Below are positions 5,018-62,309 of a DNA stretch of 64,000 nucleotides, piece after piece (the first letter of the stretch is position 1; the number at the start of each line of letters is the position of its first letter). Origin of the DNA: a virus; the IMG/VR virus record IMGVR_UViG_3300035698_016128, positions 1-64,000 of that record. One strand, written 5' to 3'. The position numbers were made by a program, and so were the translations under genes. A model generated the notes under the pieces. The model made no database searches. It was not told the DNA's origin and saw only the letters and a list, made by a program, of their open reading frames with translations.

Positions 5018-5263
5018 TCAGGCTGGTTCGGGTTCTTCCTTCGGAAAGTAGCTGGCACCATCAGGCACCAAGGCTCTCAGGGCCATGATATCCTCAATGG
5101 TGGGGTCACTTTCCATCTGCCACGTCTGAATAATCTGAATGGTGGCAGGTACGCCGTACTTGGCGATCAATTCGATAATGAATGTGATAAGAGCGAGAGT
5201 AGGGTCCATCGGTGTTTCTCCCTTCATATTGCTGTCAAATTTTTTTAGTTCGTCGAGTATCAT
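5018..5263 (-). CDS. Small hypothetical protein at the end of the lysis-like cluster
   Basis: Not recognised. The ATG at 5263 overlaps the lipoprotein stop as ATGA. A second in-frame ATG at 5208, preceded by AAGGGAG, gives a 63-residue form starting MDPTLALITF and is equally credible. It has a hydrophobic or amphipathic helix (LALITFIIELIAKYGVP) and an acidic, proline-containing end. It is the last - strand gene before the terminator. A role in lysis is suggested only by its neighbours. Confidence 0.6.
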   Translation of the reverse strand: MILDELKKFDSNMKGETPMDPTLALITFIIELIAKYGVPATIQIIQTWQMESDPTIEDIMALRALVPDGASYFPKEEPEPA

Positions 5264-5634
5264 TGATTACGCCTTGCGAGAAACTTGTCGACGAGCACGG
5301 CAATATCGCCAGCCAACACGGTAATCTCAATCATGGCGTACTCAAGCATCTCTTTGTCTTGAACATCACCGCTACGCTTATAAGCTGACAGGGCATCGAC
5401 TGCCACAATGTACGAAGAGCGATACAGCACATGAATCGCCTTGATCTCTTCCACATCATCGCTATTGATGTACCCTTCTGCGTACAGGTCGGCGCTGACC
5501 TTCATTGCGCTGTCAACCATGATAGCTGATGTTTTGATGGAACTGTACGTGTTCTTTGTGAACGTGGAACAGCCAGCCAGAAGCACGAACGCTACCAGCA
5601 CAGCAACCAATACAAACAGTTTGTTTTTCCTCAC
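5260..5634 (-). CDS. Predicted lipoprotein, possible spanin-like lysis partner
   Basis: 124 residues beginning MRKNK, a hydrophobic stretch and the lipobox LLAGC with the lipidated cysteine at residue 21, so the mature protein should sit on a membrane facing the periplasm. The rest is helical with no second membrane segment, which argues against a one-piece spanin. It overlaps the holin-like gene by four bases and the next small gene by four, so the three are co-translated. By position it may be an outer-membrane lysis subunit, but it is longer than typical Rz1 proteins and not proline-rich. Confidence 0.72.
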   Translation of the reverse strand: MRKNKLFVLVAVLVAFVLLAGCSTFTKNTYSSIKTSAIMVDSAMKVSADLYAEGYINSDDVEEIKAIHVLYRSSYIVAVDALSAYKRSGDVQDKEMLEYAMIEITVLAGDIAVLVDKFLARRNQ

Positions 5635-5870
5635 GGGGATACCTCCTCTGTTTTGGGTTCAACGGTAAGCTCGGTAGTACCGGCTACCAAAATGGTTTCG
5701 AGATCTTTCTTCTTCACCATACCCACTCGCATGAACCACACGACGAGTAGTGCCAGTAGCGAGTTGACACCGACAATAACACCCTCGGGTATCACCACGC
5801 CGAAGCCTTGGATGATTTGGAAGACGGCAAGCAGGATCATCGAAACAATAGTTTTCTTTCCTTCAAACAT
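5631..5870 (-). CDS. Holin-like small membrane protein
   Basis: 79 residues with two hydrophobic segments (about residues 8-28 and 32-55), a short turn between them and a charged C-terminal tail (KKKDLE, then an acidic end), the layout of small two-helix phage holins that open the inner membrane. I start at ATG 5870 because AGGAG lies seven bases upstream; a longer frame to 5924 overlaps the gene before it and adds a non-membrane stretch. It ends in a four-base overlap with the lipoprotein gene. No endolysin is adjacent; the only peptidoglycan hydrolase candidate is near 44.1-44.5 kb. Confidence 0.65.
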   Translation of the reverse strand: MFEGKKTIVSMILLAVFQIIQGFGVVIPEGVIVGVNSLLALLVVWFMRVGMVKKKDLETILVAGTTELTVEPKTEEVSP

Positions 5871-5881
5871 GGCGTTTCTCC

Positions 5882-6943
5882 TCAGATGAAGTTTACATGC
5901 TCTGGCGGGAAACTCATAGCCCAAAGCATTTGGTTGTAGGTCTCGAACTTACACGGCTTGCATTCTGCCAGCCTGATACGGTTCATTGCCTTCACATGCG
6001 AATTGCTTTCCCATGCCTGTTTGAAGGACTGCTTGGCAAGGTCGCCGAACCACTGCCCTTCCTTAACAATGTTCTGACAACAAATGGACAACCTGCTGTT
6101 TGCCAGAATGTTCGCTGTGAGAAGATGCCCAAGGCACACAGGGTACGGGCGCTTATACTCCGAAGCACCCTCCTCAAAGTAGTGACCGAGGTAGTGAATC
6201 TTAAACGCATCATCCTCATACATCGAAGTGGCAAGGGCCACAGCTTCGGTTACCCTGCCACGCTCGAAATCATCTTTGCCGTATTTTGACTTCGGAATAA
6301 AGATGGGTTTGACCTGCATGTAATCAACCCCGATATCTTTGAATGTCTTCGCGGCGGCAGATAACTCACTAAGGTTATCCTTATCAATGAGGTACGAGAC
6401 ACCAATCTTACAGCCAGCGCCATCCTTGATTTTCGCCTTGGCCTTGACCAGAAATGCAAGGTAGTGCAGGACAACGACAATATCGAGCTTGGTTCCGTGC
6501 ATGCGCTTGTAGGTAGTATCGGAAATCGCATCAATGCTGACTCGAACGAATGAGCAGTTGCCCACAATGTCAAAGGCATCATCCATAGTGCGGAACAGGG
6601 TGCCGTTGGTGATCAGGCCGACGTCCATGCCAAGGCGCTTGTAGTCCTCGAATGTGTTCAGGAGGTGCGGGTTGGTCAATGGCTCACCGCCCCCAGTAAA
6701 CAAAACAGCCTTCACACCATATTCCGATAACTCTTCCGGCAACCGCCGTAAAAGATCCTTCGGCAACATAGCCTCATTCTTCTGGCGAAACGACCGGCTG
6801 TTACAATGTGGACAATTCAGGTTGCAAAGCGAACTTGGCTCAACGCTTGCAGTCACAGGTGGAGGCATCGTGCCACTTGCAATAGAAACCATTTGTGGCG
6901 TGTGGGAAAGCACCTTATACGGATTAAAAGGCCCAAGTGACAT
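5882..6943 (-). CDS. Radical SAM enzyme with SPASM/twitch-like C-terminus
   Basis: Predicted radical enzyme that uses a [4Fe-4S] cluster and S-adenosylmethionine to start carbon-radical chemistry. The cluster motif CNLNCPHC has C40, C44 and C47 (CX3CX2C); GGGEP at 84-88 is the SAM-contact motif. Near the C-terminus C270, C288/C289, C328 and C331 (CKPC) look like ligands of one or two auxiliary clusters, as in SPASM or twitch enzymes that modify peptides or oxidise sugars and cyclitols. The full TIM-barrel length (353) is present and it looks active. It is the last gene of the modification cluster, separated from it by a gap with a possible promoter. Substrate unknown. Confidence 0.9.
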   Translation of the reverse strand: MSLGPFNPYKVLSHTPQMVSIASGTMPPPVTASVEPSSLCNLNCPHCNSRSFRQKNEAMLPKDLLRRLPEELSEYGVKAVLFTGGGEPLTNPHLLNTFEDYKRLGMDVGLITNGTLFRTMDDAFDIVGNCSFVRVSIDAISDTTYKRMHGTKLDIVVVLHYLAFLVKAKAKIKDGAGCKIGVSYLIDKDNLSELSAAAKTFKDIGVDYMQVKPIFIPKSKYGKDDFERGRVTEAVALATSMYEDDAFKIHYLGHYFEEGASEYKRPYPVCLGHLLTANILANSRLSICCQNIVKEGQWFGDLAKQSFKQAWESNSHVKAMNRIRLAECKPCKFETYNQMLWAMSFPPEHVNFI

Positions 6944-6982
6944 ACGTTTCTCCCATGCTGTTTGTGATTGATAGATAGTTAT

Positions 6983-7012
6983 ATACTACCACAACCCGCT
7001 TTAATTCATCAA
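6983..7012 (-). promoter_or_regulatory. Possible sigma70-type promoter before the SPASM gene
   Basis: Reading leftward, TTGATG (7012-7007) and TAGTAT (6988-6983) are separated by 18 bases, each matching the consensus at four of six positions, in an AT-rich gap of 87 bases. It lies about 40 bases upstream of the radical SAM start, in one of the few gaps in this region. Confidence 0.35.
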
Positions 7013-7030
7013 GCAAATGAAAATTTAATA

Positions 7031-7222
7031 TTATTTTTCAGGACTTTTAAAGAAGAAGCAACTAGAATAATAAACTCTTACTGATGTACATGACGCTCTA
7101 TACTGGAGTAATTCATCTACCTTATCATGAACTATAATGGAAGCTGATACAGAATCATCTATACAAGCGCCCTTATTGGTATCGCACTTCGAAAATATAG
7201 ATTCAAATTGATTCATTATCAT
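7031..7222 (-). CDS. 63-residue cysteine-containing hypothetical peptide
   Basis: Not recognised. I start at ATG 7222 because it forms an ATGA overlap with the sulfotransferase stop. The N-terminal two thirds are mildly acidic; the last 25 residues are Cys, Tyr and aromatic-rich (SCTSVRVYYSSCFFFKSPEK) and unlike the front. It lies between the sulfotransferase and a SPASM-like radical SAM gene. It could be a small accessory protein, a peptide substrate of the neighbouring enzymes (a guess from position and shape) or a chance ORF. Confidence 0.45.
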   Translation of the reverse strand: MIMNQFESIFSKCDTNKGACIDDSVSASIIVHDKVDELLQYRASCTSVRVYYSSCFFFKSPEK

Positions 7223-7782
7223 TCGCCCCACTCATACCCAAGATATTCAATCACTTCAGGAATATATATCGCCCTGACACGCTCTATCAGTTCAATATCA
7301 TCTCCGTAATATACTCTATAGTCTTTATCCCTGGAATAGACAGTGTTTATATGCGGAAGGGGAGTGGTTGGAATCGAAACTATAGAGCAAATTTTATCAT
7401 AATCTTCCTGTATTGTTTCCATCTTGCCAAGGTAGTTGACCGCCAACTTACCTTCATGCATAAAAAATATACTGTAATCATCCACTCCAGGCTTCCTGTA
7501 CTTGAAGGCATAATCCCTTAATGATAAATCCTGTGGAATTTGCTTTAGCCTCTTAACTGCAAACCAAATGGAAACAAAATGATCCCATGGGTTTCTCACA
7601 AACACAAACTTGAAATAATTATTCCAACATTCAATTCCTAAATATTCCATAGCGACATGAACTGGCATGTGGTCCCAATTGCTCAAACTACAGCCAGAAG
7701 ATTTAAGAGCCACAGCAATGCTCCGCGATGCACACTTGGAATTCCTCAAGAACATAATTTTCTTTTCATGACTGAAGACCAT
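7219..7782 (-). CDS. Sulfotransferase (carbohydrate-type, family 2-like)
   Basis: Predicted to move sulfate from PAPS to a hydroxyl, usually of a sugar. The two PAPS-binding segments are present: KIMFLRNSKCASRSI at residues 8-22 (5'-phosphosulfate loop) and FVRNPWDHFVSIW at 61-73 (3'-phosphate loop, with R63, N64, P65 and S71). The order, spacing and His-containing segment DHMPVHVAM between them fit the Sulfotransfer_2 family. At 187 residues it is shorter than animal relatives but near bacterial ones. It lies one base after the kinase-methyltransferase gene and probably acts on the same product. It would use host PAPS. Confidence 0.85.
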   Translation of the reverse strand: MVFSHEKKIMFLRNSKCASRSIAVALKSSGCSLSNWDHMPVHVAMEYLGIECWNNYFKFVFVRNPWDHFVSIWFAVKRLKQIPQDLSLRDYAFKYRKPGVDDYSIFFMHEGKLAVNYLGKMETIQEDYDKICSIVSIPTTPLPHINTVYSRDKDYRVYYGDDIELIERVRAIYIPEVIEYLGYEWGE

Positions 7783-7783
7783 A

Positions 7784-8875
7784 TTAGCTCCCGTTAATTA
7801 TTGTAATGATTGATCTGGGGATTCCGTCGCCAGCCTGATTAACAGAAGGGGATATTGTATAGTTATAATCTGACAACATATCCTTAAGCTTGGACATTGT
7901 CGGGTAATACTTCTTATCGCCTGTGACGATTTTTTCATTCGTGCCGCTAGGGTGAATGCCAATCTCTATCTTAAGAGCGCCACCCGGTTTTAAAATACTC
8001 ACGAACCTTTTTATCTGCGCCTCTTGGTTGTTTAAATAATGAAATAGGCCCAACATTAAAATATGAGAAAAGAGACCTAGCCCATTTATATCATCATTTA
8101 TGTCCATTGTATAAAATCTTGCACTCTTGCAGAAGTAAATTGAGGTCTGTATTGCATTGGCAATATCAACGATTCTTCCAACATTCTCTATACCAATAGC
8201 CTCAGCGCCCCTTCTATCACATTCAACCGCAAAGAGACCAGTGTTACAGCCAATGTCTAACACATTGCACCCTGTCATGTCTTCTGGCAAGGCTAAGGCC
8301 GCAAGCTTCCTGTTACTTCTGGAAGAAGATTGTCTAGGCAGAAACTCATACTCCTGATACCATACATACGCAGGGACTACTCTCTTTATCGCCTCCTTCT
8401 TAATGATATCCTTGATGGCATCACACAGCCCGTCTAAGCCAATATCTCCAACCTCCGCGACGCTTTCGTTCAGAGTTATCCTAGTCATAAACCCAGGCAA
8501 TTTCTCAACGAAGCACACATTGGAATGCTTGGATAAAATATTTTGGTATTCAGGCTTTGTCCACAGATAGCCTTCCGTTATCACAGAGGAGTATAGATTG
8601 ACAGCAGTTTGAATTTCAGAATCAACAGCCTTATGCATTATCATTTTATCAGCATGAGGTAGCTCGTTAAGTATCGCCCCCAAATGCGAGTTATAGTTCT
8701 CACCATATCTCTCTCCAAGCACAATTAATCCCTTTCGGATAGCCTGCACTTGAACCCAATCAGTTTCGATGAGAATGGAATTCGGAAGAACACCGTTTAG
8801 ATGCTTAGACAATGTAGTCTTGCCAGCATTAGAAGCGCCCTTGACTACGATTAAATTATAAATATTCTTCTGCAT
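7784..8875 (-). CDS. Fusion of P-loop kinase and SAM-dependent methyltransferase
   Basis: Two enzyme domains in one 363-residue chain. Residues 1-165: a small-molecule kinase-like P-loop fold with Walker A GASNAGKTT (13-21), an early ETDW and a VITEGYLW strand typical of sugar or nucleoside kinases. Residues 170-363: a Rossmann methyltransferase with motif I VLDIGCNTGLF (205-215) and an acidic IGIE after the second strand; the lead-in (WYQEYEFLP, then a Ser/Arg-rich linker) recalls CmoB/DUF1698 proteins. The fusion suggests that phosphorylation and methylation act in one pathway. Neighbours point to glycan or small-molecule decoration; DNA or RNA modification remains possible. Confidence 0.82.
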   Translation of the reverse strand: MQKNIYNLIVVKGASNAGKTTLSKHLNGVLPNSILIETDWVQVQAIRKGLIVLGERYGENYNSHLGAILNELPHADKMIMHKAVDSEIQTAVNLYSSVITEGYLWTKPEYQNILSKHSNVCFVEKLPGFMTRITLNESVAEVGDIGLDGLCDAIKDIIKKEAIKRVVPAYVWYQEYEFLPRQSSSRSNRKLAALALPEDMTGCNVLDIGCNTGLFAVECDRRGAEAIGIENVGRIVDIANAIQTSIYFCKSARFYTMDINDDINGLGLFSHILMLGLFHYLNNQEAQIKRFVSILKPGGALKIEIGIHPSGTNEKIVTGDKKYYPTMSKLKDMLSDYNYTISPSVNQAGDGIPRSIITIINGS

Positions 8876-8883
8876 TGTTTCCC

Positions 8884-10467
8884 CTAGCGTATTAAGGTGT
8901 GTTCAATTAGGTCTTTCCAAAACCTGCTATTCTTATATACATCAATGTGTTCATCATAATATTGTAAGTATCTTTTATGGCTAATGGTTGACAACATATA
9001 ATGTGCTATCGCTTGCCATGGGTAGCTTCGAATAACGTTTTGAAAATATTCTTCAGCAACATCTAGCTTGCCCATTCTCACATTTGCATTTTCTATAAAA
9101 TTAACCATGATGTTCATGTAGTATGCGTACTCTTCTATCTCCACAGGGTTAATACCCGGAGCCCGTATGTTGCACCGAGATGCCACATGGTCAGAGTAAC
9201 TATCATCCACAAAGTAATCGTTCTCCTTACATATTTCAAAAAGCCTACTTCCTGCAATTGGTATCGCTATGAATATGTATGCCCAATCAATATTCAGTTC
9301 AATTAAAAAATTAAGAGTCTCAGTTCTATGCTCATCGAGTTCTCCTGGAATCCCAATCACAATGAATACATGGATTCTCATTTTATATTTTCTTAATATT
9401 GAAACCACTTCTTTTATCTTCCTGGTAGTCAACGGCTTATCAATGACCTTTCTCAAAACATGATCTGAGCCAGACTCGATGGCAAGCACAACCACCTTAA
9501 CCCCTGCATCACTTAGTGCCATAGCGATATCATCATCTATCTTATACGCAGCAAGTCCGTTTGGAAATTCAACATGAATGCCTTTCTCTTTTATTAACTG
9601 CAATATCCTTATAGCTCTTTCTTTATTATATAGGAAATGATCATCTTCAACAATCAACAGGGTCATACCATAGTTGGTAATATAGTGATCTATTGTTTCG
9701 GCAACACGCTCGAACGACATCATTCTGACCTTCTTGCCATGGAGCCTACCGTTGGCGCAGAATACACAGTTGAAGGGACACCCCCTTGATGTGTGTATGC
9801 TCACTTCGACCTTCTTGATTGATGGGTCTTTCTCTATATAAGATCTTCCATTGTATTTTCTTATATTTATATATGAAAAATCTATTAATGGGATATCATC
9901 AATCTCATATACCATATCGTATTGGGGAATTTGTTCCTGAGCCAACGACGCCTTGGTTATCCATGCAGGACTGATAGAGGGCAGGTCTTCTATTTCAACA
10001 TCTGCCTTAAGCATCTTCCGTACTGGCATCTCGCCTTCCCCAAAACATATTGCATCAATGTCAGGGTACTCTTCAAATAACTCTTTATATAGATTTGTTG
10101 CCAACCCACCACCAACAATAATTGGAACATCAAAATATTTCTTTATCCTACTGACCATACTCATGTGGGGGAAGCTAGTATTGAACAGAGCAGATATGCA
10201 TACGTAATCAGGTTCGAACATCAACATAGCCATTACAATAGAATCAAAGACTACGCCATGCAGAGTTCCACAATGTAGATTTTCAAGGATTATCTTATTA
10301 CAATCAAAAATTTCAAACTCGCACGAATCACTCTTGCCCACATACGATATTACTGATAACGCACCATATGGCGGAGTGAGGAAATACTTCTTTTGGCCAG
10401 GACCCTTTGGCACATAGCTATCAAAGGAGCCATGAGGTGGGATTATAAATAGAATTTTTTTAGCCAA
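8884..10467 (-). CDS. B12-binding-domain radical SAM enzyme
   Basis: 527 residues. The first 150 form a Rossmann-like cobalamin-binding domain (starts KKILFIIPPHG; VPIIVGGGLAT and ICFGEGE near 115-145). The radical SAM core follows, with SRGCPFNCVFC giving C230, C234 and C237, and later conserved elements (IESGSDHVLRKV, IGIPGE). Such class B enzymes methylate unreactive carbons or rearrange rings, many in sugar, lipid or natural-product synthesis. The last 80 residues look like a helical repeat (LDVAEEYFQNVI). All cluster cysteines are present. A second, broken relative lies at 16411-17340. Confidence 0.9.
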   Translation of the reverse strand: MAKKILFIIPPHGSFDSYVPKGPGQKKYFLTPPYGALSVISYVGKSDSCEFEIFDCNKIILENLHCGTLHGVVFDSIVMAMLMFEPDYVCISALFNTSFPHMSMVSRIKKYFDVPIIVGGGLATNLYKELFEEYPDIDAICFGEGEMPVRKMLKADVEIEDLPSISPAWITKASLAQEQIPQYDMVYEIDDIPLIDFSYINIRKYNGRSYIEKDPSIKKVEVSIHTSRGCPFNCVFCANGRLHGKKVRMMSFERVAETIDHYITNYGMTLLIVEDDHFLYNKERAIRILQLIKEKGIHVEFPNGLAAYKIDDDIAMALSDAGVKVVVLAIESGSDHVLRKVIDKPLTTRKIKEVVSILRKYKMRIHVFIVIGIPGELDEHRTETLNFLIELNIDWAYIFIAIPIAGSRLFEICKENDYFVDDSYSDHVASRCNIRAPGINPVEIEEYAYYMNIMVNFIENANVRMGKLDVAEEYFQNVIRSYPWQAIAHYMLSTISHKRYLQYYDEHIDVYKNSRFWKDLIEHTLIR

Positions 10468-11737
10468 GGAGACTCACCCACCCTTTCAGTAATTTATCAT
10501 CTGGAAAATAACTTAGGTACTGCCGGGGACTGCCCTTGCTATGCGAACGCCATTGCAAATTTGAATTAAATAACTCTACTATATCATCATCTTTGTTTTT
10601 TTCAAATACCTTACCGTAATCGCCCAGTGATTCAATAAAAATCTTATAACCACATTCCTTATTATTGTCTAATGCCTTCCAACTTCGCTTTCGTTTTTGC
10701 CCAAGCATTAAGTTATGAAATGTGCTGTTCCAAGAAGAAATCATCTTGCCTGTATCATACAGCCTGATAATATACTTCTGCATTAACTCAATTATACTTG
10801 GTATCTTACTCTTCTCCTTATAAAGAAATTCGATATTGTGTACGTATTCCTCTTCGTTGTTACAAACAAACCTAACCAAACTTTGGAATAGTATATACTC
10901 TTCTGCCGGATTCTTCATGACAATCGGAATGATCCCTGCGGCTATTGCCTCACCCAATACCTGTTCGCAGGTTCCAAAATGATTTGGATTAAGTGGGTAG
11001 CCAAACACATCAATGATTGCAAGGTATGATTTAATATCTTTTATTACACCAGTGAATTCAAACTTAGATTCAAGCCCACGCTCTCTTACTTGTTGTTTAA
11101 TCTTCTCAGCATCACACCCGCCACCTATTATAATAAATTTAACATCCGGTATATTAATCTTGCTACAGATATCAATAAAATTTGGATGTAACTTTGAGTA
11201 ATCCAAAGTCCCTATACAACCAATATTAAACCCATCATGCGAAACTGGCTTTACATCAAGATACTCATCAACATTGCCAGTAGTCCATATTTGCCCCAAC
11301 CTTCCCTTTAACCTTTCCGGTAGCCCTATTATCTCTTTAGCCTTAAGGCTTATGGGCGAAGCAAAAACAAACATATCTGAAAACTCTATAAGCTTCTCAG
11401 AGAATACATATGGGGCATTCAGCCCAGACACGTGAGACCAAAAACACATGCGGCACTCTGGTATATCCGCAGTGGTAAGGAATTTGAATAATAGAGGATG
11501 ATTCCAAAAATGAATAATGACTATATCAGAATTTTTTATATGCTTATATATGCCAGAATAATTGTCGTTCATATTCTCATGAACTATCTTAGAATCATAC
11601 TCTTCATAATAATTATAATTCAGACACAAAATAGTATGCATATTTGTGTCATCCTTATTAATCCAATTCATTAGAACAGTGCCTATGCCACCGCCAAGAT
11701 GAACAGTAATGTGCAAAACCTTATTCGCACGTTGCAT
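10460..11737 (-). CDS. Glycosyltransferase, GT-B fold, GT4-like
   Basis: Predicted to transfer a sugar from a nucleotide donor. The N-terminal half has the glycine-rich GGGIGTVLMNW loop and a helix-strand pattern (VIIHFWNH); the C-terminal half has GCIGTLDYSK, IIIGGGCDAEKIK and the donor-binding CEQVLGEAIAAGIIPIV, which matches the E-x7-E region of GT4 enzymes. The final 110 residues are less conserved. Its start overlaps the FkbM gene by 17 bases and its end overlaps the B12 radical SAM gene by 8. Donor and acceptor cannot be told. Confidence 0.85.
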   Translation of the reverse strand: MQRANKVLHITVHLGGGIGTVLMNWINKDDTNMHTILCLNYNYYEEYDSKIVHENMNDNYSGIYKHIKNSDIVIIHFWNHPLLFKFLTTADIPECRMCFWSHVSGLNAPYVFSEKLIEFSDMFVFASPISLKAKEIIGLPERLKGRLGQIWTTGNVDEYLDVKPVSHDGFNIGCIGTLDYSKLHPNFIDICSKINIPDVKFIIIGGGCDAEKIKQQVRERGLESKFEFTGVIKDIKSYLAIIDVFGYPLNPNHFGTCEQVLGEAIAAGIIPIVMKNPAEEYILFQSLVRFVCNNEEEYVHNIEFLYKEKSKIPSIIELMQKYIIRLYDTGKMISSWNSTFHNLMLGQKRKRSWKALDNNKECGYKIFIESLGDYGKVFEKNKDDDIVELFNSNLQWRSHSKGSPRQYLSYFPDDKLLKGWVSLLG

Positions 11738-12434
11738 GTAAGTCCACCCATCCCAGAGCTAATTCCTGATTGTCAATTCCCTTCAACTCTTTATATTTCA
11801 TGTAACGTGTGAGCGCCTCGTCAATGCCCAACCATTTGTCAGCAGGAAGGTAAACGCCAAATGGCCCCGAAGAGAACTTGGTGAACATAAAGTCTGTGCC
11901 TTTACATCTGTCCTCATGCATAGCCTGATTCACTAACTGAAAACGATTATAACCAGCCACATGAAGGTAGCTGAATATCTCATAGTAATCAAAGCGGGAT
12001 AACTCGAATGATACAAACTTTGGTCGAAAACTTTTAATATCGGCGAGCAATTGTTTGGCAACTATTATATCGTTGCCCTCTATGTCCACCTTCATATAGT
12101 ATGGTTCGCCAAAACGATATAATTCCTTCAGGGATATCGCCCGGATTAACACTTCGATTGCCGTACTGCCATCCCATGTAACTTTGTTTTTTATGCAACT
12201 GCTCCAATCTGTATTTTGAGGGTGAATGTAAAATGCCACATGCCCTTGGTTATTGGAAATTGCGTTGTTCAATAGCACGAGCCTTTCACTCAATATCTCT
12301 TTTGCGAACCTTATCCTTCCAAAATTTGCGAGATTAGGATTTGCCTCAACAGCAATTACCTTAAATCCCTTATGAAGATAATACGCAGTGTCATCGCCGT
12401 TATGGAACCCTAAATCAAAAATATATTCGCTCAT
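11721..12434 (-). CDS. FkbM-family methyltransferase
   Basis: SAM-dependent methyltransferase, usually acting on hydroxyls of sugars or natural products. Motif I is FDLGFHNGDDT at 6-16, the acidic end of strand 2 is VEANP (29-33), and the family hallmark KVDIEGND is at 115-122 with D117 and E119. The last 60 residues extend past the core. It starts in an ATGA overlap with the preceding gene. FkbM proteins are common in capsule, O-antigen and glycosylation loci, which fits the neighbours. Confidence 0.87.
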   Translation of the reverse strand: MSEYIFDLGFHNGDDTAYYLHKGFKVIAVEANPNLANFGRIRFAKEILSERLVLLNNAISNNQGHVAFYIHPQNTDWSSCIKNKVTWDGSTAIEVLIRAISLKELYRFGEPYYMKVDIEGNDIIVAKQLLADIKSFRPKFVSFELSRFDYYEIFSYLHVAGYNRFQLVNQAMHEDRCKGTDFMFTKFSSGPFGVYLPADKWLGIDEALTRYMKYKELKGIDNQELALGWVDLHATCE

Positions 12435-13381
12435 ATATTCAACACCGCCCCTCTGAAACCAATATTTAAAAGCTTTTCCCTGAGTACATTCTTGTGCGCC
12501 ATTGCCGTTATGACCACAGTGGCACTATCGTCAAGCGATGCAAGCACACTCTCATCGTTAACCTTCAACCCATTTACCGTAAGCGTTTGCTTATAAGGAT
12601 TATTATCAACTAAAATCTTATTTGGGAAATCAGAAAATAATTTATTAATAAACATAAACTCTCTTCCAATTCCCCAAAAACATACCTGCCTATCTTTTGA
12701 TAAAGTGTTGACTGCCTTCTCTATCTTACGAACCCCATGATCCAAATACCATTTGATGCTATTTCTGAGCCGAAAATATTTACGATCAATGGCTGGTAAT
12801 TTACAATCGGTATTTCTCTGTAGCAACACAGTCATAACAGGCATCTGCATTGCCTCGCTCATGATGGGCATGCTCCCGCCCTGCTCAACCTTCACCATCC
12901 CAAAACCATTCAGCCTCGCAAGGTACAATAGATGAAGTAAATCAAAGTGATGAATATGCTCTCTTATTATTACCCAATATGGTTTGAAGAAATCGTACTC
13001 AATATACCTTGAGGCATCAGGTGCGCCTATGCAGACATATTCATTGTCCTTATTGAAGAATGTTTCCAAAACATCTGAATGCTCAATCATCTGGTCAAAC
13101 ACACCTACTGATTTAGAATTTCCAATGAAATTTTTTATCTGCTCCTCTCTGACATGATCCATTCTCTTCTCAGAGGCATTCTGATTACAACTGGTATACT
13201 CATGCAGATAATATTCTTGAAGCTCATTGAGTTCTTCATTTATGAGATCATTAAATACATGCCCGCAGCGATCGCAACATACCAACCGCACCACATTGTA
13301 CAATAGTGAACCGTCAAACCTATCGCATGGTATCACGCATATGGTAGTAATGCTCTTTTCCTTGCATATTGGACAATTCAT
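12431..13381 (-). CDS. C-methyltransferase relative lacking most of the SAM domain
   Basis: 316 residues from ATG 13381 (preceded by GGAGAAA and in an ATGA overlap; an earlier in-frame start would lie inside the upstream gene). The N-terminus is a zinc domain (CPIC at 3-6; CCDRC at 35-39) as in sugar C-methyltransferases. The C-terminus has the second Rossmann-like domain (CFWGIGREFMFINKLF, then LVDNNPYKQ). EHIHHFDLLHLL also matches the family. The central SAM-binding part (a VLEIGxGxG loop) is missing, and the protein is about 90 residues shorter than usual. It may be inactive as a methyltransferase, or work as a sugar-binding or isomerase-like remnant. Confidence 0.7.
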   Translation of the reverse strand: MNCPICKEKSITTICVIPCDRFDGSLLYNVVRLVCCDRCGHVFNDLINEELNELQEYYLHEYTSCNQNASEKRMDHVREEQIKNFIGNSKSVGVFDQMIEHSDVLETFFNKDNEYVCIGAPDASRYIEYDFFKPYWVIIREHIHHFDLLHLLYLARLNGFGMVKVEQGGSMPIMSEAMQMPVMTVLLQRNTDCKLPAIDRKYFRLRNSIKWYLDHGVRKIEKAVNTLSKDRQVCFWGIGREFMFINKLFSDFPNKILVDNNPYKQTLTVNGLKVNDESVLASLDDSATVVITAMAHKNVLREKLLNIGFRGAVLNI

Positions 13382-14346
13382 ATTTTCTCCAGAAGTCTTC
13401 CTGCAAGGGCATCTATATTCTCGGGTTGACCAGCAACTAACTGATTGCAACTCGAACACGGATTAAGAAGGTACCTGTTCCCAGCAAGCATCACTCGGCG
13501 CATACGCCTGAAGCGTTCGCTATTCCATACTTCCTTGACGCTCTTGCCAAGCACGTCCCCAATAACAAGCTTCCTGTTCCAATCAAGAAAACAGGCGCTC
13601 ACCTTGCCGTCGTGATTTATGCAGAAGGAGTAGAATATATAAGGACATACGTCTACACTTGTAAGCGGTTGCCCATACACTCCAACATCAGAATTAACTT
13701 TCACATCGTTCATCTCAAAATCATTCCAGCAATTCATGACATGCTCTATCGCAATGCCATCGGAAATAGGTTTGAATATATGAATGAACTTCTGCTGGTC
13801 TTCTTCGGAAATGACATCGCCATTTATCTTAATAAATATAGTACAATTCCCTCGGTTCTCGTAGAGATGCTGTATGTTATCCACATAACGCTGAAAATCA
13901 ATTGTAACGCCACTGAAGCGCTTGTACTGGTCAGCGGTCACCCCGTTGACGGAAACGTTAATACGGTCTATTCCTGCCCCTATCAGGTCCATATTTAACA
14001 CAGGGTTGAACAAACTTCCGTTCGTGGTGGTGTCAATGTCATCGGCCACACCTTTATCCTTAGCCTCCTTCACCATATCTGCAAAGCGGGGATTGAGAAG
14101 AGGCTCGCCAAAGGCATAAAGCCTCAGCGTTTTAATTGGAGTATCAAACTCTTGTATATCGCGCATGATCTTCTGATACAGCCGCCACTCCATGATACCC
14201 TTGCTCGGCATCTTCTTACCAAACTGAAAGCAGAACTTACACTTGAAGTTGCATACAGAGGCAGGGTCCACATTTATTACAAACGGGGTAGCCAACGGCA
14301 ACGCAGGACCAAGCGGCACTTTGCCTTCTTCGCGTATTCTTTTCAT
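13378..14346 (-). CDS. Radical SAM/SPASM enzyme
   Basis: 322 residues from an ATG that overlaps the previous stop as ATGA. The cluster motif CNFKCKFC gives C32, C36 and C39; AFGEP is the SAM-contact motif. The C-terminal segment has the SPASM pattern: CPYIFYSFC, then GKVSACFLDW, a WNSERF helix and a final PCSSC. SPASM enzymes hold extra iron-sulfur clusters and act on peptides or on sugars/cyclitols (BtrN is an example of the latter type of chemistry). Location among glycosyltransferases favours a sugar substrate, by inference. The gene runs directly into the broken C-methyltransferase gene. Confidence 0.9.
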   Translation of the reverse strand: MKRIREEGKVPLGPALPLATPFVINVDPASVCNFKCKFCFQFGKKMPSKGIMEWRLYQKIMRDIQEFDTPIKTLRLYAFGEPLLNPRFADMVKEAKDKGVADDIDTTTNGSLFNPVLNMDLIGAGIDRINVSVNGVTADQYKRFSGVTIDFQRYVDNIQHLYENRGNCTIFIKINGDVISEEDQQKFIHIFKPISDGIAIEHVMNCWNDFEMNDVKVNSDVGVYGQPLTSVDVCPYIFYSFCINHDGKVSACFLDWNRKLVIGDVLGKSVKEVWNSERFRRMRRVMLAGNRYLLNPCSSCNQLVAGQPENIDALAGRLLEKI

Positions 14347-14993
14347 ATTATTTCTGGTAACTCCCAATTGGGCTTCAGGAAGGCTTCTTTTTTATTGTAC
14401 CTGCCGGGTTGAAAGAAGTTACCGAATATAAATAAATCAGGAAGTAAGACTATATCATCAGGGAATTGCCCCCTCAACCTGACAGCATAACGACCATCAT
14501 CCCATTTATGATTATTGCCAAATCTATTTTGTTTTAAAATTTCTCCTTTCACAATATACATTCCCATTCCAATATTACATACTCGAACATCTTCAATAGA
14601 AGAGATTCGTATTGGCGTCCACGGATGCGGTTCCGAATCGTCACCAGTCGGAATGCTATCGCCTCTGTAAACAGAGAACATTATTATTTTGGCAGTCTGC
14701 TCTCTTATTACATCGAAGAATTCTGGCTCATACATATCATCATCACCCATGAAACCATAATAATCATCATCAATGATTTCTTGGGTATCAGCAAAATCAT
14801 CTATTTTTTTATAGCACATGTCCGTAGGCAATAATTCATCAGTACGAACAGGGTGTATCCAATCTCTATCAAAGCGTGCTTCTGAATCGTGCCCTATGAC
14901 AGGATGCCACTCGATACCCATGGGCTCCAAATAATGAATTAGAGTCGGTATAAGATGCGTTCTAAAGAACGGAGTGATTATGTGTATTTTCAT
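14343..14993 (-). CDS. Glycosyltransferase-like protein, GT-A type, copy 2 of a tandem pair
   Basis: 216 residues starting MKIHIITPFFRTHL, with GDDDMYEP around residues 83-90 as the likely metal/nucleotide-binding DXD region after YYGFM. Start chosen at ATG 14993 because the frame upstream of it is short and poor and AGGAAA lies before it. It is strongly similar along its whole length to the next upstream gene (15005-15658): same opening, same DRDWIHP, LLPTDMCY, DDFADTQEII and final FLKPNWELP. A GT2-like donor fold is inferred from motif order and not proven. Confidence 0.75.
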   Translation of the reverse strand: MKIHIITPFFRTHLIPTLIHYLEPMGIEWHPVIGHDSEARFDRDWIHPVRTDELLPTDMCYKKIDDFADTQEIIDDDYYGFMGDDDMYEPEFFDVIREQTAKIIMFSVYRGDSIPTGDDSEPHPWTPIRISSIEDVRVCNIGMGMYIVKGEILKQNRFGNNHKWDDGRYAVRLRGQFPDDIVLLPDLFIFGNFFQPGRYNKKEAFLKPNWELPEII

Positions 14994-15004
14994 ATGATAG
15001 TTTC

Positions 15005-15658
15005 CTAACCTATGATTTGTGGCAATTCCCATGTGGGTTTTAAAAATGCTTCCTTGTTGGTAAATCTTCCTAATTGAAAATAATTAAAAAATGAATACAT
15101 ATCTGGTAAAAGATGTATTTCATTTGGATATGTATTTCTCAGGCGCTCTATATAATGCCCATCGTTACAGGTTGCCGAATTACCGAATCTATGCTTTTTA
15201 AAAATCTCACCTTTGATTATATATTGCGATAAATGAATGTGGCCTGTTCGTATATCTTTTAATCCACTAATCTTAAGAGTGGAGCATGGGTGCTTCGTAG
15301 GCGCATTATCTCTTGGAACGCTATCGCCTCTGTACAATGAGCAAACAATTATCTTGGCAGTCTGTTCTCTTATTACATCAAAAAATCCTGGCTCATACAT
15401 ATCATCGTCACACATAAAGCAATAGTAATCGCCGTCAATGATTTCCTGAGTGTCGGCAAAATCATTAATTTTACGATAGCACATGTCCGTAGGCAATAAT
15501 TCAATAACCTTAACCGGGTGAATCCAATCTCTATCGAATGGAATATCTTCCTTCGGCGCAACTACGGGGTGCCACTCGATACCCATAGGTTCTAAATGTT
15601 GAATAAGGGTATTCACCAAGTGTGTCCTGTAGAAAGGAGTGATTATGTGAATCTTCAT
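15005..15658 (-). CDS. Glycosyltransferase-like protein, GT-A type, copy 1 of a tandem pair
   Basis: 217 residues; paralogue of the gene that follows it. Shared blocks are DRDWIHPV, ELLPTDMCYRKI, DFADTQEII, CDDDMYEP, FDVIREQTAKII, YRGDS and KEAFLKPTWELP. Differences concentrate in residues 33-45 and 120-165, the regions expected to touch the acceptor or sugar, so the two may use different substrates. The gap between the copies is 11 bases, and two bases separate this gene from the GT2 gene upstream. Confidence 0.75.
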   Translation of the reverse strand: MKIHIITPFYRTHLVNTLIQHLEPMGIEWHPVVAPKEDIPFDRDWIHPVKVIELLPTDMCYRKINDFADTQEIIDGDYYCFMCDDDMYEPGFFDVIREQTAKIIVCSLYRGDSVPRDNAPTKHPCSTLKISGLKDIRTGHIHLSQYIIKGEIFKKHRFGNSATCNDGHYIERLRNTYPNEIHLLPDMYSFFNYFQLGRFTNKEAFLKPTWELPQIIG

Positions 15659-15660
15659 TA

Positions 15661-16380
15661 TTACCCTCTTTTATTAAAGGCATTATCGTGATACACATAT
15701 GTGACAGGCTCCATATAAGGCAGAAGGCCGAACTTCTTTCTTATCAGGCCGCACCACCAACTGTCGCTACCATAATGGTTACTGTGTTCTCCAATTTTAA
15801 TGTGATTGATAAGTTCTCGCCACATGACACAGCACGAGAAATTATTATAGCAACACTCAACGGGGGTAGTGGGAATGCGGGGGTCAGTGTATGGGACATG
15901 CAGGAAGTCATGAAGTTTTTCTCTGGAATTTTCCTTTTTCTTTCCAGCCCAGTAAACAGTTTTATTTGCATACAACACGAGGGGGGTTATAGAACTATAC
16001 GTAGGATTTGCCTTCAATCCATCCACAAGCTTCTGTAGCCAATCTGGGTTTTCCTCTGGTATGTACGCATCATCGTTGAATAGGCAAATGAATTGCCCAT
16101 CGGATACCCTGAAGGCCCGCATGATATTTGCACCATACAGCAATTGGGCATCTCCAAAAACAACTTTTATCTTTTCTGATTGGATACTTTCGAGGTATGC
16201 CTTTAGCTCGTCATTGGGGCTGGCATCATCAGAAATGCATATTTCAAAATCAGGGTAGGATGTATAATTCAAGATACTCTCTATACATCTCTTTGCTTCA
16301 TTTGGAAGATTGAAGGTGGGAATTAAAATTGAGACCTTACCAGCGACACCAGACTTAGCTACGTCAACTTCTTCAAACAT
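15661..16380 (-). CDS. Glycosyltransferase family 2
   Basis: 239 residues. Start ATG 16380 is chosen because AAGGAGG lies five bases before it. The GT-A fold is clear: VSILIPTFNLP at the N-terminus, CISDDASPND as the first acidic nucleotide-binding motif, and FICLFNDDAYIP as the DXD region holding the metal and UDP/GDP-sugar. A later SDSWWCGLIRKKFG region fits the acceptor side. Lengths and motifs match bacterial GT2 enzymes building surface glycans. It is the first well-defined glycosyltransferase reached by transcription coming from the tail genes. Confidence 0.88.
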   Translation of the reverse strand: MFEEVDVAKSGVAGKVSILIPTFNLPNEAKRCIESILNYTSYPDFEICISDDASPNDELKAYLESIQSEKIKVVFGDAQLLYGANIMRAFRVSDGQFICLFNDDAYIPEENPDWLQKLVDGLKANPTYSSITPLVLYANKTVYWAGKKKENSREKLHDFLHVPYTDPRIPTTPVECCYNNFSCCVMWRELINHIKIGEHSNHYGSDSWWCGLIRKKFGLLPYMEPVTYVYHDNAFNKRG

Positions 16381-16410
16381 TACAACCTCCTTATACATTT
16401 GAGGTTTATT

Positions 16411-17340
16411 CTACGCCTTATTACTATTGGCGTATTTCTTTACCTGCCGGAGGATGACCCGGATGCCGGTTTCCTCTTCAACCTTCGTTCGCATTGAGTC
16501 AACAAGCGCCTGACTGCTGGCACCGTATGGGTTGAGAGTTGCCTCCTTGCACCCAAGTTTGCCAAGCTTCGCAAGCAATTCTATGTTGACATTCGTTATA
16601 GCATCATTGAACGCAAAACTCAAACCATGTTCGCTCAACGCAGTGGCGATACTTATGGCCCGTTGGCGGTCAAAACAGAAGGCTTCATCCCCAAAATAAA
16701 AACTCTTAATGCCATATGCCTTGACCACGTTGATGACTTCGTTCATGATGCGCTTCACACCGAATGTCTTCAGCCCCGGACAAAGCCACGTGTTGCGGTA
16801 GGGGCTTCCACGGGTGGACATAATCATCACAGCCTTCTTCTCATTGAGCTTCCGGTTGTAGCTTCCCATGTCCACAAGGTGACGGCTCGGAAGGGGCAGT
16901 TCATTCAGGTTCCGTACTTCAGCTTTGTACACGTTCTTTGCTTCCGAAGTGCGGTTGTGAAAAGAGTCCTGCAGGAACAGGCGCATTGCATTCTCAGCTT
17001 CTCCGCGGATGACCACATCAAACAGATCGTCGTTGGCAAATGTGGGAACATCCTTGCTTGGGCCTGAGCCACAAACAATGATGCTACAGTTTTTATTTAC
17101 CTCACGACACTGCTGTGCAATTTCTCTTGCAAGGGCGAGCCGCTTCCTGTCCACGTACATCACGTACAGAACGCAGTGACCGAAGCTCCACATGTTTCGC
17201 TCGATGCCATTGAGGTCGTTGACTCTGACCTTCAGGCCATGCTTCTCAAGCCGGGGGGCAAGCTGGAGCAGAAACATAGGGGGATCAAGTCGCCTACGGA
17301 ATACATTTGAAAATGGCAGATTGATAAGTTCTACTCTCAT
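16411..17340 (-). CDS. Shortened B12/radical SAM-like protein without cluster cysteines
   Basis: 309 residues from ATG 17340 (GAGG upstream; a GTG at 17352 in a GTGA overlap is an alternative). It has an N-terminal B12-binding-like domain (INLPFSN, IVCGSGPSK, VVIRGEAENA) and then the place where these enzymes read STRGCPYxCxxC. Here it reads STRGSPYRNTWLC: the three ligand positions are S179, N183 and L186, with a single C187 shifted by one. The rest of the barrel follows (YFGDEAFCFDRQRA) but stops about 100-150 residues early. It cannot bind the cluster in the usual way. It may be a scaffold, a binding protein or a decaying gene; the frame is intact. Confidence 0.78.
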   Translation of the reverse strand: MRVELINLPFSNVFRRRLDPPMFLLQLAPRLEKHGLKVRVNDLNGIERNMWSFGHCVLYVMYVDRKRLALAREIAQQCREVNKNCSIIVCGSGPSKDVPTFANDDLFDVVIRGEAENAMRLFLQDSFHNRTSEAKNVYKAEVRNLNELPLPSRHLVDMGSYNRKLNEKKAVMIMSTRGSPYRNTWLCPGLKTFGVKRIMNEVINVVKAYGIKSFYFGDEAFCFDRQRAISIATALSEHGLSFAFNDAITNVNIELLAKLGKLGCKEATLNPYGASSQALVDSMRTKVEEETGIRVILRQVKKYANSNKA

Positions 17341-17348
17341 GGCGTGCC

Positions 17349-17633
17349 TCACACATTTACGATTTTTTGTGCTCCTTTTCTCTTCGTACTCTTGCCAAGA
17401 ATCTTGGCAGTTTCCTTAGCCGCACCAACGAAGCTCACATTTACGACATCCCCCAAACGCAACACAACATCTTCCCTCATGTTAATTGCATTCTTCTTTA
17501 TGGCACCACTTGGCAAAGTAAGATCATAGGTACCATCCGCATTCTTGGAATATATGGTAGCATCCGTGATGTTATCAATCTGTTCACTCTTCGAAACTTC
17601 ACGGATAAGTCCTAACAGGTTAGTCTGTGGCAT
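17349..17633 (-). CDS. Small beta-rich protein, possible baseplate OB-fold
   Basis: 94 residues. The segment DGTYDLTLPSGAIKKNAIN followed by LRLGDVVNVSF and AKILGKS resembles the OB-fold found in phage baseplate hub and spike proteins (gpV/gp5 type), judged by pattern only. It starts on the last base of the upstream gene (TAATG). It is the last gene of the tail block before the radical SAM/glycosyltransferase genes. Confidence 0.55.
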   Translation of the reverse strand: MPQTNLLGLIREVSKSEQIDNITDATIYSKNADGTYDLTLPSGAIKKNAINMREDVVLRLGDVVNVSFVGAAKETAKILGKSTKRKGAQKIVNV

Positions 17634-60841: not shown

Positions 60842-61813
60842 CTACCGCCCTTTCTTCTGCGGTACCCGCCTCGCCCCCACGCCATACACTGATCCGCTAT
60901 TGCCAAGGAATTTCATTGGCCTCATGCTGGCAATCGAAACCCGTTCGACATTGCGAAGAAAACTGATCATCTTGTATTTGCGCACCACAGCTCTTAACTT
61001 GCTACGCTTATGTGTGAAATGAAACATGCTTCCGATAACGCCTTCACCAGTACGCAACTTAACAAGCTTGCGGTTACGCATATAATCTTCGTACTTATCA
61101 TCCGCTAACTCGCCCAAGGTACCACCACGTATCATAGCCGTCGCTGTCTTGGGGCCAATGCCTTTGACACCTGGGATGTTATCAACCTTGTCACCATCAA
61201 GAGCCAAGTAATCAATATGCTCATTTGGCTCAAACCCGAAACGCTTTCTAAACCGTGCTCTGTTCATGACTACATCACCACGGCAATGCATCTGCACCGT
61301 ACACTTGGCTGTAGCCTCAATGAGTTGAAAGAAGTCCTTATCCTCGGAAACAATCACCACCTTATCATCTGGCCCCTTGCACCGCTTCTTGCATAGCTTG
61401 ACGGCACGGGCCACAACATCATCAGCCTCCCATGCAAGACTGCTGTATATAACCGTAATGCTCATATTGGAAAGGAACTCCATCAGCATCAGGAATCCGT
61501 CACCAACCTCATCGTCTAAGGTTCGCCCTTCCTTGTAGGTAGGCAACAGCTTGGCCCGTTCAGAAATCACCGGCGGGAGCCCCCTAGACGGCGCTACGCC
61601 CCTTTTCATGCTTGCATATAGGTGAGCGCTAGGGTCAAAGGCAATGACCGTGTGACAGGGCTGATACATGGCATTGATGCGAATGATGGTTCTCATTACA
61701 CCGTAGGCAATACCGGTCTTAACGGGTTCGCCATCAATGACCATGGAAAGCTTCGAATGCACGTGCTTACTTTTGTGCAGAGCCAGATTCCCATCTATTA
61801 CCACGAAGTTCAT
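60842..61813 (-). CDS. 5'-3' exonuclease/flap endonuclease
   Basis: 323 residues of the PIN/FEN fold used in replication to remove RNA primers or flaps. N-terminal FVVIDGNLALH, then EADDVVARAV, IVSEDKDFFQL with its acidic set, and a helix-hairpin-helix region DGDKVDNIPGVKGIGPKTA that binds DNA. The C-terminal 60 residues are basic. GGAGG precedes the ATG. Its placement at the end of the right-hand gene block, before the terminator, and the RuvC/SbcC pair on the left suggest replication genes on both sides of the late block. Confidence 0.9.
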   Translation of the reverse strand: MNFVVIDGNLALHKSKHVHSKLSMVIDGEPVKTGIAYGVMRTIIRINAMYQPCHTVIAFDPSAHLYASMKRGVAPSRGLPPVISERAKLLPTYKEGRTLDDEVGDGFLMLMEFLSNMSITVIYSSLAWEADDVVARAVKLCKKRCKGPDDKVVIVSEDKDFFQLIEATAKCTVQMHCRGDVVMNRARFRKRFGFEPNEHIDYLALDGDKVDNIPGVKGIGPKTATAMIRGGTLGELADDKYEDYMRNRKLVKLRTGEGVIGSMFHFTHKRSKLRAVVRKYKMISFLRNVERVSIASMRPMKFLGNSGSVYGVGARRVPQKKGR

Positions 61814-61821
61814 ACCGCCTC

Positions 61822-62100
61822 CTACAGACGAGTTGATTTCAACGTTACATTCTTGAACCCATGCATCGCCATGATTGCAAGATGAGACATTCCTATCGAC
61901 CGAGCCTTCAGTCCACCAAGCTCACGCCTTGCAGTGGCGAGAGCAGTCGTTTTTGTTTTGTCATAATAAAAGCACAGTTCCTTCCTGACCTGTGTGCTAC
62001 CGTCGACTTCCTGCGCCATTATCAAACTCTTCTTGGCAATGCGTACACAGTCACATACCTTCAACTTGCCTTCCGGTGTAAGGACTACGAATTGCGCCAT
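61822..62100 (-). CDS. Hypothetical protein
   Basis: 92 residues, not recognised. A short beta start (AQFVVLTPEGKLKVCDCVRI) and helix (KTTALATARRELGGLKA). It lies eight bases before the exonuclease gene and starts in a one-base overlap (TAATG), so it is co-translated with its neighbours. Confidence 0.65.
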   Translation of the reverse strand: MAQFVVLTPEGKLKVCDCVRIAKKSLIMAQEVDGSTQVRKELCFYYDKTKTTALATARRELGGLKARSIGMSHLAIMAMHGFKNVTLKSTRL

Positions 62101-62309
62101 TACATTCCTCCATTTCGTATGTTGATATCTGCTTGCAACGCCTTCCTCATGAAACTTACCCTACCAGCGTAACCTATCTCTGGTCGTACCTTGGTACCGC
62201 CTGACCTATTGCATAAATCCTCGTCATAATTCGAACACTTTCCAGTTATGCAACGACAACTCATAAAATCTGTTCTCACGAACCGGCAACGCATAGGCTT
62301 GCGTTTCAT
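62100..62309 (-). CDS. Small cysteine-rich protein
   Basis: 69 residues with five cysteines (residues 8, 18, 20, 25 and 33) followed by a basic segment. Likely a metal-binding small protein; no known family. GGAGA precedes the ATG. Confidence 0.6.
   Translation of the reverse strand: MKRKPMRCRFVRTDFMSCRCITGKCSNYDEDLCNRSGGTKVRPEIGYAGRVSFMRKALQADINIRNGGM

Follow-up and report, generated by a model that had tools for sequence, protein, structure and literature searches.

The window analyzed here, bases 1-64000 of a viral record of 124,119 bases that represents a contig of an uncultured tailed phage, carries a cassette that appears to be expressed late and to encode soluble enzymes that build and tailor a glycan on a virion protein from sugars of the host; we assign this reading a probability of roughly 0.58. 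The cassette runs from 17352 to 5882 on the minus strand, consists of twelve enzyme-like genes and one remnant, and lies between the tail genes and the putative lysis genes; the minus-strand structural genes are the terminase (60211-58364), a Mu-like portal, the major head protein (41659-40733) and the tail genes, after which the cassette follows. Intergenic gaps in the cassette range from -25 to +12 bp, with the single exception of 87 bp before the last radical SAM gene. Late timing and linkage to virion genes are well supported predictions from gene order and conserved structural linkage; the acceptor (a virion protein, probably of the tail), the chemistry of each enzyme, the glycan and its benefit are what we infer. 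The genes listed in a first-pass annotation of this DNA, made from the sequence alone, were all found in place, in the same range and on the same strand, and are given here with their flanking genes.

17349-17633, minus strand: small conserved gene on the tail/baseplate side, immediately upstream of the cassette and overlapping it by 4 bp; same place in L194-L196, 48-61% identity; Pfam matches weak only
16411-17352, minus strand: B12-radical-SAM-like protein lacking the cysteines for the [4Fe-4S] cluster, with CxxxCxxC replaced (RGSPYRNTWLC); 50-57% identity in relatives
15661-16398, minus strand: GT2 glycosyltransferase; Pfam PF00535, 84 bits; 47-50% in L195 and L196
15005-15658, minus strand: GT-A-fold glycosyltransferase, copy 1, seen so far in phages only; AF2, Foldseek to GT-A enzymes, alignment A9
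14343-14993, minus strand: GT-A-fold glycosyltransferase, copy 2 of the same family; 64% identical to copy 1
13378-14367, minus strand: radical SAM, BtrN-like, with twitch/SPASM-type C-terminus; Pfam; 42-63% in viral contigs, 44-52% in cells
12431-13381, minus strand: sugar C-methyltransferase-like protein with the SAM domain deleted in frame; alignment A7
11721-12434, minus strand: FkbM methyltransferase; Pfam PF05050, NCBIfam TIGR01444; 38-59% to cellular cassette copies
10460-11737, minus strand: GT4 glycosyltransferase; Pfam PF00534; 59-64% in the closest phages; tree
8884-10467, minus strand: B12-binding radical SAM with intact CxxxCxxC; Pfam; orthologues of 37-44% in cells, 50% in L212
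7784-8875, minus strand: fusion of P-loop kinase-like and methyltransferase parts; Pfam methyltransferase; 48% in L194
7219-7782, minus strand: sulfotransferase; PF03567, phrog_3347
7031-7222, minus strand: remnant of 63 aa, left by in-frame deletion within a methyltransferase-like gene of ~187 aa; alignment A8
5882-6943, minus strand: second radical SAM, SPASM-like C-terminus; Pfam; 37% in L194
5631-5924, minus strand: small holin-like gene with two TM segments; hydropathy
5260-5634, minus strand: lipoprotein-like gene, possible lysis gene; one TM segment and lipobox-like LAGC; 34-38% in L195 and L196, close behind the cassette
5018-5263, minus strand: small conserved gene at the end of the run; 55-56% in L195 and L196

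Pfam supports the family assignments of the first-pass annotation for the pair of radical SAM proteins with a SPASM match, the B12-radical SAM, GT2, GT4, FkbM, the methyltransferase domain and the sulfotransferase. The C-terminal SPASM match is above the cut-off for 13378-14367 (52.5 bits) and slightly below it for 5882-6943 (20.1 bits). In the proposed kinase-methyltransferase fusion, the methyltransferase is borne out by Pfam, and the kinase part displays a Walker-A motif and weak matches only. The CxxxCxxC cluster motif is present in the sequences of all three radical SAM genes beginning at 13378, 8884 and 5882, for the first of these also in alignment A4. A PDB search showed that the radical SAM at 13378-14367 resembles BtrN and DesII, and AprD4 is the best PDB match of the B12-radical SAM; judged from sequence, these likenesses would point to sugar chemistry and leave the exact reaction unfixed. 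By hydropathy, all cassette proteins are soluble, with zero TM segments, which fits cytosolic protein glycosylation. Epimerase and NTP_transferase families (NDP-sugar synthesis) were not found by family search in this genome, the record of which may be incomplete, and therefore host nucleotide sugars are the probable donors; 6 of the 18 other carrier contigs encode an epimerase above the cut-off.

The two GT-A-like paralogues lack a Pfam match; the AF2 model is confident (pLDDT 95), and Foldseek matches it to GT-A glycosyltransferases in PDB and viral libraries, with a Che8 glycosyltransferase among the fold matches. Fourteen phage copies of this family were aligned (A9), and it was not found in 80 cellular loci, 26 cassette-bearing whole cellular genomes or 395 genomes of one phylum, so that "phage-specific" here denotes a family for which this limited search has so far turned up no cellular copy. 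Viral scans that used one protein as query, either the B12-radical SAM or a GT-A paralogue, and an alignment of the two paralogues, returned no matches; profile alignments including outside members did recover homologues where the single-protein scans failed.

The small genes downstream of the cassette may function in lysis; family searches gave no match for the two-TM gene (5631-5924) or the lipoprotein-like gene (5260-5634). Late expression had originally been proposed because no terminator is visible between the baseplate genes and the cassette; this is true and is a weak argument by itself, given that promoter-like and terminator-like sites occur at chance-level frequency.

Comparison of the gene set, as the first-pass annotation had suggested, recovered homologous cassettes in phages and in cellular flagellin- and surface-glycan loci. 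With the twitch radical SAM and FkbM as queries, scans yielded 34 viral loci, and a search of the phage collection with the DNA sequence of this phage gave no match. In L194-L196, the same tail genes are located upstream, and the cluster-less B12 relative, GT-A, radical SAM, C-methyltransferase and GT4 follow in the same order; the small downstream genes are also common to L195 and L196. Shared cassette genes in these relatives mostly display 45-64% protein identity. The contig of L194 matches this phage in the major capsid protein (MCP, 72% identity) and the large terminase subunit (TerL, 54%), and that of L241 matches it in MCP (74%). For the other carriers, some of which are partial contigs, a TerL or MCP match to this phage is not detectable, and among them are six further phage contexts in which the cassette is embedded in, or adjoins, genes for the head, the tail or packaging. 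It is flanked by the genes of the tail terminator and the major tail protein in L203 and by those of the portal and the scaffold/major head protein in L201 (in L198 by homology); in L206 and L208, the radical SAM and neighboring genes adjoin the major head protein; in L197, the cassette follows a baseplate wedge gene, in L204 it adjoins TerL and the head-tail adaptor, and in L205 (and, by homology, L192) it is upstream of TerL. This linkage was read from the carrier loci themselves; in L199, L210 and L212-L215 no structural neighbor is shown. A search of 28 TerL relatives did not detect FkbM, which thus is not a lineage marker. One TerL relative, G002 (51%), encodes at about 67.2-84.4 kb (L106, L107), adjoining a tail-like gene, a different glycan cluster with five GT2, sugar dehydratase/epimerase-like, WxcM-like, sulfotransferase-like and GT9-like genes, which has a single GT2 (31%) in common with the present cassette; the presence of a different cluster in a tail-like setting implies that glycan genes in this neighborhood turn over.

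The radical SAM tree excludes the copies of L194 and L205, whose aligned sequences opened with a stop codon; in it, the window copy falls inside an all-virus group of 11 (support 99/95). The virus and cell labels require at least five changes over the entire tree, which points to repeated exchange having taken place; in the GT4 tree, with 17 viral rows, two such changes are needed.

The cassette core (twitch/SPASM radical SAM, FkbM, GT4 and B12-radical SAM) recurs in surface-glycan loci of bacteria and archaea, which were identified by scanning genomes for the B12-radical SAM and by tblastn of all cluster genes. The core genes are found together in Methanoperedenaceae, Falkowbacteria, Desulfocapsaceae, Clostridium hydrogenum and others, with FkbM present in four of the core loci (L112-L115), and the nearest cellular cassettes are phylogenetically scattered. 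The loci of Methanoperedenaceae (L112), Falkowbacteria (L113) and Desulfocapsaceae (L115) share the four-gene core with the phage, the best-conserved genes showing 38-59% identity; they add CDP-sugar synthesis (RfbF/G-like), a C-methyltransferase, an epimerase and sometimes Wzm/Wzt or flagellin genes, and lack the GT-A family seen in phages. Among the cellular neighbors, named by eye from sequence without profiles, are genes for CDP-glucose-type sugars and for a sugar C-methyltransferase, and L113 has Wzm/Wzt as well. FliC, FliD or FliS genes lie within ~10 kb in 10 of the 42 cellular orthologue loci, compared to none of the 38 loci of more distant B12-radical SAMs (Fisher p = 0.001), the loci being non-independent; the 10 include related Chromobacterium and Rhodocyclales loci, so that the events number fewer than 10. 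Flagellin is absent from the phage cassette setting, where tail genes are found instead. In one Desulfocucumis locus (L118, 14132-18420), the twitch radical SAM is present in four tandem copies.

We propose that the soluble GT-A pair, GT2 and GT4 would draw on host nucleotide sugars to assemble a short glycan in the cytoplasm on a structural protein of the virion, much as flagellin is glycosylated in bacteria. The sugars of this glycan could then be altered by oxidation or epimerization, C- or O-methylation, and addition of phosphate and sulfate, for which the cassette offers the two radical SAMs, the B12-radical SAM, FkbM, the kinase-methyltransferase and the sulfotransferase. By analogy with flagellin loci, in which the cassette adjoins its likely substrate, the likeliest acceptor would be a neighboring virion protein; the benefit might be shielding, or evasion or exploitation of surface recognition. 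Glycan tailoring, late expression and glycosylation of the virion, all three anticipated in the first-pass annotation, gain support mainly from the conserved place of the cassette in relatives, from the cassettes in head and tail blocks of unrelated phages and from the orthologues beside bacterial flagellin genes.

Among the known systems, the gtr seroconversion clusters of temperate phages encode glycosyltransferases that require a membrane flippase and an integral-membrane transferase; neither a GtrA-like flippase nor a membrane glycosyltransferase is encoded in this cassette, the products of which have no TM segments. Phage-encoded glycosyltransferases, the hallmark of virion glycosylation, are represented here by GT2 and GT4 (Pfam) and the GT-A fold, and adjacency to flagellin, the hallmark of cytosolic glycosylation of the flagellin type, is observed for the cellular orthologues. 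The system of mycobacteriophage Che8 employs few glycosyltransferases, unlike this cassette, and we know of no set of radical SAM, B12-radical SAM or sulfotransferase genes in Che8-type virion glycosylation. The glycosyltransferases of Che8 and its relatives have been reported to modify structural proteins (Freeman 2023, as cited in PMC11256854). Pelagimyophages carry glycosyltransferase clusters in the tail-fiber region, some with added radical SAM cassettes (PMC7029224). The suggestion that no described phage pathway has this gene set holds for the literature searched, in which no paper joining phage, radical SAM, glycosyltransferase and FkbM was found; it has to be qualified by these previously reported pelagimyophage clusters and by mycobacteriophage virion glycosylation, the latter to the extent that it is cited in PMC11256854.

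The main alternative, which we consider unlikely, is that the cassette remodels the host surface late in infection, acting on the LPS O-chain, capsule or flagellin, and thereby prevents superinfection or keeps progeny from readsorbing to debris. Published work has interpreted in this way the similar LPS/glycosyltransferase regions of pelagimyophages (PMC7029224) and cyanophages (PMC7824862), which likewise contain glycosyltransferases in a variable tail-module region and sometimes radical SAM cassettes but involve other families (GT8), the likeness being one of gene content and location as described there. The orthology of the core enzymes to cellular surface-glycan and flagellin-glycan enzymes also suits this alternative; among the cellular loci are settings of the O-antigen type (Wzm/Wzt in L113), whose product is something other than a protein glycan, and structural linkage, which indicates late timing, also fits a late change of the host surface. 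However, the cassette encodes no membrane protein, flippase, polymerase or ligase; a search of the phage for integrase and tRNA genes found none, and without an integrase there is no obvious long carrier state; late timing would leave little time for protection; and the cassettes inside head and tail blocks of unrelated phages suit virion proteins better.

A further alternative, non-adaptive cargo in decay, with host genes acquired and now being lost, appears improbable. Two methyltransferase genes do carry internal deletions. The partial C-methyltransferase of the first-pass annotation (12431-13381) is indeed incomplete, having lost in frame ~75 internal residues around the SAM-binding motif that are present in 5 of 5 aligned relatives (A7); a full-length relative matches Methyltransf_23. 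The presumed small peptide gene turned out to be a 63-aa ORF that aligns only to the two ends, ~15 N-terminal and ~45 C-terminal residues, of a ~187-aa protein intact in L192, L194, L196 and L213 (A8); the intact form has no Pfam match and is classed as methyltransferase-like by its motif. With these two genes damaged, the pathway of this phage may be simpler than the cassette implies. Against decay, the core and its place are kept in relatives, most shared genes retain the identity given above, and the other genes are intact, including CxxxCxxC in both SPASM-type radical SAMs and the B12-radical SAM. The B12 relative at 16411-17352, initially described as broken, does lack the cysteine motif; however, all three cluster cysteines are replaced at the same site in 4 of 4 aligned phage copies, and the viral scan detected homologues in five viral contigs in all. 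This conservation with shared cysteine loss rules out a fresh pseudogene and identifies the protein as a maintained cluster-less member of the B12-radical-SAM fold; its AF2 model was poor (pLDDT 55) and was set aside. In L192 (12149-14623), an 824-aa B12-radical-SAM ORF is split by ~1 kb of extra in-frame sequence, with halves that match the window protein.

The replication module of the phage is on the opposite strand (L005-L007). It contains a fourth radical SAM (G000 83339-84091; 37 bits to PF04055). A divergent thymidylate-synthase-like protein, which may be a hydroxymethylase, is encoded at G000 111495-112685 (L007:7495-8682), and a GT9-like gene is located between DnaB-like and primase-like genes in this phage (G000 101813-103561; L006:17813-19558), where it carries a fused methyltransferase-like C-terminus, and in G002 (61026-62216); a GT1-like gene near a DUF2284 gene was noted alongside these. 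A role of the GT9-like and GT1-like genes in DNA or surface modification is possible. Hypermodification of phage DNA, with the glycosyltransferases decorating modified bases, could draw on the thymidylate-synthase-like gene and on the position of the GT9-like genes in both phages, but we consider it highly improbable for the cassette, which comes after the structural genes, is far from these genes of the other-strand module, and has its relatives in protein- and polysaccharide-glycan loci rather than in base-modification clusters.

SPASM radical SAMs often mature peptides, and the genes for the sulfotransferase and the second radical SAM flank a small ORF, yet the small-molecule or modified-peptide (RiPP-like) product raised in the first-pass annotation is hardly credible, because alignment A8 shows this ORF to be a methyltransferase-like deletion remnant, leaving no precursor peptide, and because the first radical SAM resembles the sugar enzymes BtrN and DesII and travels with glycosyltransferases.

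Extending glycosylation of the virion beyond this phage, we tentatively suggest that several unrelated tailed-phage groups might carry a cassette centered on the twitch radical SAM and embedded among virion genes, which would put flagellin-like glycans, made from host sugars and tailored by radical SAM and cobalamin enzymes, on head or tail proteins, and that one group might keep the cluster-less B12 relative in a new, non-radical role. The twitch radical SAM, often with GT-A, inside or beside structural genes provides a sequence-recognizable marker for possibly glycosylated phages. The cassette ties decoration of the phage particle to bacterial flagellin glycosylation, adds a conserved but cluster-less version of the B12-radical-SAM fold, and opens to test the question of whether glycosyltransferase clusters of phages, commonly interpreted as modifiers of the host surface, act on virions instead.
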